Assembly (NCBI GenBank): GCA_018824325.1
Contig: JAHJFT010000002.1
Span: 1 to 32,331, forward strand
Direction of reading: 5' to 3'
DNA length: 32,331 nucleotides
Source of the DNA: Patescibacteria group bacterium
Lineage (GTDB): Bacteria > Patescibacteriota > Patescibacteriia > JAHJFT01
Below are positions 13,758 to 15,556 of this stretch, piece after piece (positions within the stretch are counted from its first letter, which is position 1; each line of letters opens with the position of its first letter). The translations under genes and the position numbers were made by a program. The notes beneath the pieces are model-generated. The model saw nothing but the letters and a program-made list of their open reading frames with translations, did not search any database and had not been told where the DNA came from.

Positions 13758-14309
13758 CTACTTGCCAACAACGAGAAACCGATAATGCGGATCGAAGTCG
13801 AGCCCAGGCCAGCTCAAGCTCAGGTAGCGCCCGGCAGCGTCCCCATACAGAGAAGGCACGTACAGGTGGCCACCAGGGTTGCACCAGGAAGAAGCCAGCG
13901 CTATAATGGGGAACTGCCTCTGCTTGTCAGGGTATTTCTTGCCAAAGACAAGGAGCTCCTCTATGGTCGCTGGCCTGTATCCGGCTTCATCCAGACGTTT
14001 GAGCGCCTGGTCGCCGGTGATTGTCTTGTCAAACTGATAAAGCTCCAGCTTGACTTTCTTGTGGCCATTACCCTGAATCGGGAAATGCTCCTCCGTGATG
14101 TCCTCGTTCACCCAGTCAAGCTTGCACGCTTCAATCATCTTGGCGAGCGGCTGGTCGTAGTCAACCACGACTTCGTAGATCTGGGACCGCAACACGCTAT
14201 CCGGATCTAATATAAAGGCCTGTAGGTTCCACCGATTAATACGTCCGCTCTTAATTTGGGCGGCGACCTCGCAAACCTGGTCAACCGTTGCTTTTTCTGG
14301 TTTACACAT
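13758..14309 (-). CDS. Uncharacterised 183-aa accessory protein (GYRPATIEELL family)
   Basis: Start chosen at the ATG 14307-14309 because a perfect AGGAGG (14317-14322 on the other strand) lies 7 nt upstream; a longer frame would add 26 residues ahead of it. The N-terminal half has a helix-rich segment and LKxELYxFDKTITGDQAL. The C-terminal half has GYRPATIEELLVFGKKYPD, QRQFPIIALASSW and a closing LDFDPHYRFLVVGK. No catalytic motif, signal or membrane segment is visible. I recall similar unnamed proteins in CPR genomes but know no function. Codon use differs from neighbours (AAG, GAG, AGG and C-ending codons frequent), which suggests transfer. It has its own promoter about 250 nt upstream and an intervening leader with a terminator-like hairpin. 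Confidence 0.8.
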   Translation of the reverse strand: MCKPEKATVDQVCEVAAQIKSGRINRWNLQAFILDPDSVLRSQIYEVVVDYDQPLAKMIEACKLDWVNEDITEEHFPIQGNGHKKVKLELYQFDKTITGDQALKRLDEAGYRPATIEELLVFGKKYPDKQRQFPIIALASSWCNPGGHLYVPSLYGDAAGRYLSLSWPGLDFDPHYRFLVVGK

Positions 14310-14435
14310 GACAAATCCTCCTCGCATCCATTGGTATTCGCAAAATACATCCAGCCGAATTGCCGAACATACTAAACGATAAACCAAGAGACACTATGTT
14401 TGATTATATAGAACAATATTTTCAATTGACCTTAA

Positions 14436-14485
14436 TAAAAAGGCCTAGGTAACTTTTGAGGGGAATTCAAATTCTACCTAGGCCT
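14436..14485 (-). terminator. Leader terminator (candidate attenuator) before the 183-aa protein gene
   Basis: On the minus strand AGGCCTAGGTA (14485-14475) pairs perfectly with TACCTAGGCCT (14451-14441) around 23 nt and is followed by TTTTATT. It lies between the strong promoter at 14555-14583 and the gene start at 14309, so it should stop most transcripts before the gene unless prevented. Confidence 0.65.
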
Positions 14486-14516
14486 AATATCCCAATAAAA
14501 TAGGATATAAATCCAT
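14484..14516 (-). CDS. Putative 10-residue leader peptide
   Basis: ATG at 14514-14516 with GGGGAG 6 nt upstream encodes MDLYPILLGY and a TAG stop. The last two bases of the stop codon are the first two of the terminator stem, so a ribosome on the stop codon would cover the hairpin base. A small hairpin (ATATCC 14503-14508 with 14487-14492) lies inside the frame. An overlapping 23-codon frame from an upstream ATG lacks a ribosome site. No run of a single regulatory amino acid is present, so the signal sensed, if any, is unclear. Confidence 0.4.
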   Translation of the reverse strand: MDLYPILLGY

Positions 14517-14554
14517 GTCTCTCTCCCCAATTTCTCATTTTTAAATAGCTTTCA

Positions 14555-14583
14555 AGTATAGCATACTCTTAAACATTTGTCAA
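14555..14583 (-). promoter_or_regulatory. Strong sigma70-type promoter for the 183-aa protein gene leader
   Basis: TTGACA (minus strand, 14583-14578), 17-bp spacer, TATACT (14560-14555), with an extended TGC just before the -10. Predicted start near 14548. The insertion sequence begins 13 bp upstream of the -35, so it left the promoter intact. Confidence 0.75.
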
Positions 14584-14596
14584 GGCCTTTTGACGG

Positions 14597-14622
14597 GAGT
14601 GATATAAAGAAGATGGAGCAGG
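14597..14622 (+). repeat. IS1595-type left terminal inverted repeat
   Basis: AGT.ATAT.AAG....TGGAGCAGG is shared with the reverse complement of 15480-15505. TTTGACGG lies just outside. Confidence 0.8.
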
Positions 14623-14675
14623 TATAATGAAAAGTAAGAGGTAAAACTCACTTATTCATTAACCTAACTCCATCT

Positions 14676-15497
14676 ATGTTTACCATACACGCTTCTTGGA
14701 GCGACGCCAAGTGTGCCGCGCTCATAAGAAAAACGCTCTTTTTAAATAGCCGCGCTATTTGTCCCTCATGTGAGGTGCGGCGCAGATTCAAGACTTTGAA
14801 AGACGGCCGTTATTGGTGCGGCAGGTGCCGGCAAAAATACTCACTAAAACAACTTGCCGGCCTTAAGGGATCTCGGTTGCCATTGGCTAAAATTGCTCTT
14901 CTTACGCGTTGTTTCTTAAAGAATTATCCTTTGGCGGTTGCTCAAGATACAACCGGGCTTTCATATCCAACCGTACGCCGCTACTATGATATTTTTCGCT
15001 TAAAAGCGAATAAATATACACTAGAACACGCTCAATTCCTAAAAGGACGAATAGTTATTGACGCTTGCTACATTGGTAAAAAGAGAAACAATAATCAGGC
15101 GGTTGTCCTTGGCGCGGTAGAGGAAGATTATACTAATTTAGCCTTTCGTATTATCCCTCAAGAAGAACAAGGATATGTTGAAAAATTTCTCTATGACACC
15201 GCTTGTCCTTGGAGCCATATTATTCATGACGGCCACAAGGCTTATGAGGATCTATCTTGGACCGGTGTTACTCACGAAGCCGAGATTCATGAGCTAGGCC
15301 AATTCGAGAAAAGCTGTCCAATTGAGCGTATCTGGGCTTTACTTCGGACGAGGATTAGGAGGACCTATCATCATATCTGGAAAGAAAAACTGCCAGACTA
15401 TCTGGCAGAGTTTCGCTACAAATTCTTGTATCGTTCCACAGCCTTAAATGAGCTAAGCTTCCTAGAATTTCTTACTTTGCCTGCTCCAAGAGCTTGA
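14676..15497 (+). CDS. IS1595-family (ISXO2-like) DDE transposase
   Basis: 273 residues, apparently full length. An N-terminal zinc ribbon has CPSC near 30 and CGRC near 48. A helical region with a helix-turn-helix look (LSYPTVRRYY) follows. The ISXO2-like catalytic domain begins near residue 125: first Asp in VIDACYIG, second Asp in IIHDGHKAY, and the acidic/Asn region IERIWALLRTRIRRTYHH. The last segment, LAEFRYKFLYR, is typical of the family. All catalytic positions are intact, so the element may be active. No good ribosome site precedes the ATG. It is transcribed opposite to all its neighbours. Confidence 0.92.
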   Translation: MFTIHASWSDAKCAALIRKTLFLNSRAICPSCEVRRRFKTLKDGRYWCGRCRQKYSLKQLAGLKGSRLPLAKIALLTRCFLKNYPLAVAQDTTGLSYPTVRRYYDIFRLKANKYTLEHAQFLKGRIVIDACYIGKKRNNNQAVVLGAVEEDYTNLAFRIIPQEEQGYVEKFLYDTACPWSHIIHDGHKAYEDLSWTGVTHEAEIHELGQFEKSCPIERIWALLRTRIRRTYHHIWKEKLPDYLAEFRYKFLYRSTALNELSFLEFLTLPAPRA

Positions 15498-15505
15498 TAT
15501 AACTG
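15480..15505 (-). repeat. IS1595-type right terminal inverted repeat
   Basis: Reverse complement begins CAGTTATATCAAG and ends TTGGAGCAGG. It overlaps the transposase C-terminus and is followed by the target duplication TTTGACGG at 15506-15513. Confidence 0.8.
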
Positions 15506-15517
15506 TTTGACGGATTT

Positions 15518-15556
15518 TTTGGCTAAAATAAGCCACTTTAGCTAAGTTTAGCCAAA
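15518..15556. repeat. Short inverted repeat beside the IS
   Basis: TTTGGCTAAA at 15518-15527 pairs with TTTAGCCAAA at 15547-15556 around 19 nt. No U-tract follows on either strand. Confidence 0.5.

Follow-up and report, generated by a model that had tools for sequence, protein, structure and literature searches.

Leaders with a Shine-Dalgarno-like purine box complementary to their own terminator hairpin: a candidate class of transcription attenuators in Patescibacteria

Introduction

Several described systems resemble the locus reported here. In peptide-leader attenuators of the trp type, a promoter, a Shine-Dalgarno (SD)-like site, a short frame and an intrinsic terminator precede the regulated gene, and the leader RNA can adopt alternative folds. 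Intrinsic terminators combine a G+C-rich stem with a U tract, and compensatory changes are found in the stem. In the riboswitch known as the HMP-PP or thiS motif, the terminator itself is reported to contain the sensing element (PMC6478431). In Staphylococcus aureus, a UCCCC motif in the icaR 3'UTR (PMC3868564) and the C-rich loops of small RNAs (sRNAs) pair with purine-rich SD-like sequences. Few studies have addressed gene regulation in Patescibacteria, and no Rfam match was found for the leaders described below.

Compared with these systems, the Patescibacteria leader has both shared and distinct features. First, like a trp-type attenuator it has a promoter, an SD-like site, a short frame and an intrinsic terminator before a gene, and alternative folds are predicted, but its short frame is not conserved and contains no control codons; the conserved parts are instead a purine box and a stretch of the terminator complementary to it. 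Second, the terminator has the usual stem, U tract and compensatory changes, whereas its apical loop is also kept in sequence and is complementary to an upstream box. Third, a conserved loop lies inside the terminator, where the HMP-PP/thiS motif has its sensing part; in contrast to that riboswitch, no thiamin genes were seen downstream, Rfam gave no match, and conservation covers the box and the loop only. Finally, a UCCCC-type stretch faces a purine-rich SD-like sequence, as in the S. aureus examples, but here the pairing would take place within one leader 5' of the gene, the box mostly has no start codon, and the partner is a terminator hairpin. This box-loop arrangement is not known from either the HMP-PP riboswitch or the icaR and C-rich sRNA systems, and a search of the open-access literature for leaders of this kind in the lineage gave no account of one.

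Results and Discussion

Layout of the leader in the window

The window, i.e., the whole 32,331-nt stretch of DNA analysed here, belongs to a genome assembly of 1.07 Mb in 127 contigs, and the penicillin-binding protein of this genome has its relatives (42-53% identity) among Patescibacteria such as Falkowbacteria, Uhrbacteria and the Parcubacteria group. All leader elements lie on the minus strand. The leader begins with a sigma-70-type promoter (14555-14583) that carries an extended -10 (TG) and consists of TTGACA (14583-14578), a 17-nt spacer and TATACT (14560-14555). A near-consensus promoter had been claimed in a preliminary description of this DNA, and the claim was borne out: the site matches the consensus at 11 of 12 positions and scores highest within 3 kb. 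It also follows the promoter consensus of the genome itself, in which the pattern TTGACAAA-N12-TGCTATA, with at most 2 mismatches, was matched 65 times, versus 3 times for the reversed control. A promoter special to the box leaders was considered and rejected, as the same promoter is the general one of the genome.

The purine box GGGGAGAGAG (14519-14528) comes next, at a distance of about 20 nt from where transcription is inferred to begin; it is SD-like, and we propose it as the antiterminator strand. A box of the form GRGGAGAGAG recurs at the same leader position in the same genome, in a second genome of the same order (G001) and in further genomes of the class. The box is followed by the short frame MDLYPILLGY, running from ATG at 14516 to TAG at 14484, within which an 8-bp hairpin (hairpin 1, 14487-14508) is predicted between box and terminator; several other leaders have a hairpin of different sequence at this position. 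The terminator hairpin (14441-14485) is made of an 11-bp outer stem with the arms AGGCCTAGGTA and TACCTAGGCCT and an inner UUUGA/UCAAA helix, as indicated by folding and by compensatory changes in relatives. Because the outer ends of the stem fall at 14485 and 14441, the stop codon of the short frame overlaps the terminator base. The inner helix, which the preliminary description lacked, presents a 7-nt loop, AUUCCCC, and the loop pyrimidines UUCCCC (14460-14465) are complementary to GGGGAG of the box through five Watson-Crick pairs and one G-U pair. After the stem come a U-rich tract, TTTTTATTA (14433-14441), and, 131 nt from the stem end, the gene P0001 (13758-14309), which encodes 183 amino acids of unknown family and has its own SD sequence, AGGAGG (14317-14322). 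The ribosome site, the peptide with its stop codon at the stem base, the perfect 11-bp stem with a T-rich tail and the AGGAGG of the gene had all been listed before and are indeed present.

The leader folds better than its dinucleotide shuffles (z = -2.5; 5 of 200 shuffles as good). A simple terminator scan misses the hairpin only because loops of up to 8 nt are allowed in it. No tRNA or tmRNA was found in the scan made for them, and Rfam gave no match at the leaders, neither in the window nor in eight leader-bearing loci that were scanned permissively. P0001 is thus preceded by a leader with a genuine intrinsic terminator, the stem of which has compensatory changes in relatives, and since no other consensus promoter precedes the gene, its expression probably depends on read-through.

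Members of the class and their downstream genes

A DNA search found a paralogous leader on another contig of the same genome (C3). Here the order is promoter, GGAGGAGAGA, ATG-TAG, a hairpin of different sequence and a terminator with the loop AUUCUCC, and the gene that follows is unrelated, encodes 194 aa and carries an SD sequence of its own. Together with the window copy (C38) and C3, 16 members from searches at the genome, class and phylum level make up the set of 18 used below. Two approaches, inspection of the sequence 3' of other promoters in the same genome and G001 and a search of 192 genomes of the class for a promoter -10 followed by GRGGAGAGA, yielded C15, C54 and C126 in the same genome, L060, L062, L123 and L129 in G001, and L169, L170, L176, L187, L188, L201 and L203 in other genera. 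A phylum-wide sample of 380 genomes gave two matches with the full layout (L217 and L219), the rest being mostly ordinary SD sites before open reading frames. The copy number per genome is to be read as at least the number found. We consider it probable that the leaders form a real structural class.

The members stand in front of unrelated genes. This would be expected if the locus were mainly an sRNA, roughly 110 nt long and with a promoter and a terminator of its own, whose loop (UUCCCC or UCUCC) acted in trans on SD sequences and was capped in cis by the 5' purine box, the downstream gene being incidental. A promoter, a short RNA, a strong terminator and an exposed C/U-rich loop, as a trans-acting sRNA would have, are directly evident, and C-rich loops pairing with SD sequences are known in sRNAs. 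However, of the members with enough sequence, nearly all have their next SD-bearing gene in the same orientation, and a promoter search between the terminator and this first gene found none. In addition, the leader is retained 5' of orthologous genes for SLT-type transglycosylases in two different genera (C126 and L060). A cis-acting leader is favoured because of this same-strand gene without an intervening promoter and the leader kept before the SLT genes, and an sRNA as the main function is unlikely, although the short terminated RNA may also act in trans.

Box-loop complementarity and alternative folds

Two things are conserved across the members: the purine box and, in the loop or the 5' arm of the terminator, a pyrimidine stretch complementary to it. 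When 111 promoters in the two genomes of this order, the present one and G001, were screened, 21 had a strong terminator within reach, and a box complement of at least 6 nt lay inside the hairpin in all 8 box leaders and in none of the 13 boxless ones (Fisher p 4.9e-6), a comparison that is partly circular because several members were known before it was framed. Outside the two genomes the effect was weaker, with a complement in 5 of 12 loci versus 34 of 224 background terminators (p = 0.03). On average, a box also fitted its own loop better than that of another member: among 16 members, the box-loop duplexes of own pairs averaged -15.1 kcal/mol, versus -13.4 kcal/mol for swapped pairs (permutation p = 0.0013). 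In a shuffle test of the sequence downstream of promoter and box, the mean longest complement was 6.5 versus 5.2 nt, with few single loci significant. A loose complementarity score over all terminators was uninformative, because its control caught reverse complements of the box and T-rich runs. In a comparison of C38, C3 and L129, four stem pairs show compensatory double changes, and the letters of the loop are largely kept. Duplex and fold tests were used instead of a covariance model because the members outside these three are too unlike.

The nascent RNA was modelled by truncating the transcript directly 3' of the pyrimidines, as it would stand until the second arm of the terminator is synthesised. 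In this state the predicted minimum-energy fold pairs the box with the pyrimidines in all 18 members, with 6-12 pairs. The full leader is predicted to fold as the terminator in 16 of the 18, and the box pairing stays the better fold in L217 and L219. In L188, L176 and L217 the 5' arm of the terminator includes the pyrimidines, and therefore the two folds are mutually exclusive. As in transcription attenuators in general, an intrinsic terminator lies between promoter and gene, and an alternative antiterminator fold that excludes it is found among the predicted structures.

Switching between the folds in the cell, its direction and its signal are our inference. During synthesis of the leader, the purine box would pair with the loop or 5'-arm pyrimidines of the upcoming terminator and enclose hairpin 1; in the window copy, GGGGAG would pair with UUCCCC as the antiterminator. 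As long as this helix held, the terminator would be blocked within the same secondary structure and the gene would be read through. If the box were occupied otherwise, or if the 3' arm were made and won, the terminator would close and transcription would stop. Given the quality of the box as an SD sequence and the likeness of the loop to the 16S anti-SD, the most natural factor to tip this balance would be a 30S subunit on the box, the binding of which would release the terminator. Under this scheme, a ribosome at the box would silence the gene, which is roughly opposite to the earlier leader-peptide proposal. On sequence grounds, and as the likeliest of the explanations considered, we tentatively assign the window leader to a class of transcription-attenuation leaders in Patescibacteria, and we hold this assignment to be only just short of an even chance. 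If it is true, an SD-like box and an anti-SD-like terminator loop would form a simple, testable tie of transcription to ribosome occupancy. We also put forward a wider and rather doubtful idea, in which such leaders would be widespread in Patescibacteria and their terminator loop would mimic the 16S anti-SD, so that free 30S subunits and the loop would compete for the SD-like box and transcription of small accessory genes would report ribosome availability without a leader peptide; in some genomes, the leader would be extended to 400-900 nt by modules closed by purine and pyrimidine stretches.

Where only the loop pairs, a pseudoknot is possible instead of mutual exclusion. Box and loop of the formed terminator would then be paired at the same time and create a site for a protein or a metabolite, in the manner of a riboswitch and not of an either-or attenuator. 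The tight 7-nt apical loops of C38, C3 and L129, which hold the pyrimidines and could pair with the stem closed, would suit such a structure, as would a box conserved beyond the needs of pairing. In L188, L176 and L217, however, the pyrimidines sit in the 5' arm and both helices cannot form together, and neither a conserved aptamer core beyond box and loop nor an Rfam match was seen. We thus regard the pseudoknot as decidedly unlikely for the class.

The window copy and its short frame

Within the attenuation scheme, the window copy is an intact, weakly pairing member. No other leader of the set has a box-loop pairing this weak (-9.9 kcal/mol, about 6 bp), and its box would pair better with 14 of the other loops than with its own. 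It may therefore be mostly off, given the weak box-loop helix and the strong terminator. The same two properties would also fit a terminator that merely ends transcripts, with the purine box as a relic and P0001 expressed from a separate weak promoter, for which a perfect TATAAT hexamer (14403-14408, minus strand), isolated 3' of the terminator and about 95 nt 5' of the start codon, offers a candidate. However, the best -35 match to this hexamer at a spacing of 16-18 nt is no more than 3 of 6, and it lacks a TG extension, in which it differs from the promoters of this genome; the layout of the leader also recurs in relatives, and a second promoter of this kind is highly unlikely to be the explanation.

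The preliminary description had read the short frame as a leader peptide on whose translation expression of the 183-aa protein may depend, and had proposed relatives as a check, with loss of the frame or the stem in them counting against this reading. The stem is conserved, with compensatory changes; the frame is not. In the closest paralog (C3) it is reduced to ATG-TAG, and in most other members a start codon is out of reach, with promoter, purine box and terminator all kept. Among the 18 members, ATG follows the box in C38 and C3 only, and two more have another start codon at that distance, GTG with a 3-codon frame in C54 and TTG with a 20-codon frame in L217; 15 members have neither ATG nor GTG just after the box, and 14 have no start codon there of any kind. 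Since start codons are mostly absent after the box, the peptide is not the conserved feature, and an SD-like sequence kept without a start codon, together with a matching terminator loop, points to a role in RNA pairing. As had been pointed out, MDLYPILLGY contains no run of a regulatory codon, nor did it resemble a known arrest peptide when these were compared by eye. Accompaniment of the P0001 family by the leader was considered and rejected, as the homologs of this gene on C98 and C104 and in G001 all lack it. In this light, read-through brought about by a ribosome that translates MDLYPILLGY and so comes to lie on the base of the terminator stem is most improbable, as the SD-like box, the spacing to the ATG and the stop codon overlapping the stem exist in the window, but the frame is not conserved, start codons occur besides C38 and C3 only in C54 (GTG) and L217 (TTG), and the leader is not tied to the P0001 family. 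In the window copy by itself, a ribosome that pauses at the TAG could nonetheless lie over the stem. The comparison of members suggests that the MDLYPILLGY frame is probably incidental, and we note as a caution that an SD-like site and a short frame before a terminator need not be a leader peptide.

The gene P0001

P0001 has no Pfam match, and its best NCBIfam and PHROGs matches are at chance level. The same genome carries homologs on C98 (71% identity) and C104 (28%), and G001 has one at 45%; among species genomes and viral contigs, the search used gave no relative. The structure was predicted with moderate quality (pLDDT 67, pTM 0.62), and the best Foldseek matches of the model are C-type-lectin domains with E values of 0.26 and worse, a weak resemblance that is suggestive only. 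P0001 and its 71% paralog differ most in the C-terminal part (13758-13900 in the window; 2430-2559 in L014), which is weakly C-type-lectin-like and is possibly a diversified region, such as the target of a diversity-generating retroelement might be.

Genome context and further observations

An insertion sequence of the IS1595 family (909 bp, 14597-15505, plus strand) lies 5' of the promoter. Its transposase (14676-15497) matches Pfam DDE_Tnp_IS1595 (1.9e-13), its ends match at 22 of 32 positions as terminal inverted repeats, and it is flanked by an 8-bp target duplication, TTTGACGG, at 14589-14596 and 15506-15513. When the flanks are rejoined without the element, they closely match the promoter region of the C3 leader. 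The insertion is located 5 bp 5' of the -35 box (after the target duplication) and cuts the promoter off from what used to lie 5' of it. The core promoter remains whole, but a formerly adjoining palindrome (15518-15556) is displaced by about 0.9 kb. This palindromic motif, TTGGCTAAA/TTTAGCCAA, also occurs 5' of the promoters of C3, C15 and L062, and is possibly an operator or another repeated motif.

In several loci, the leader continues for 400-900 nt after the first terminator, up to the first gene with an SD sequence. Examples are L209 (1536-2100, minus strand), L038 (1793-2650, plus strand) and L213 (1526-2600, plus strand), and L062, L210, L201 and L203 also belong here. These long leaders contain tandem modules closed by TTTGGAGGAG ... 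CCTCCAAA, with exact arms of up to 15 bp and spans of 133-170 nt, and may be large structured RNAs. The leader of L038 contains one hairpin, CCCTCACACC...GGTGTGAGG, in two copies (1793-1865 and about 2410-2480) that lie in two different modules. Lastly, at 970-1110 of L015, a promoter is followed by a long hairpin with a single-stranded ACCCCUCCUAGC stretch and without a purine box, and this locus possibly encodes a small RNA.
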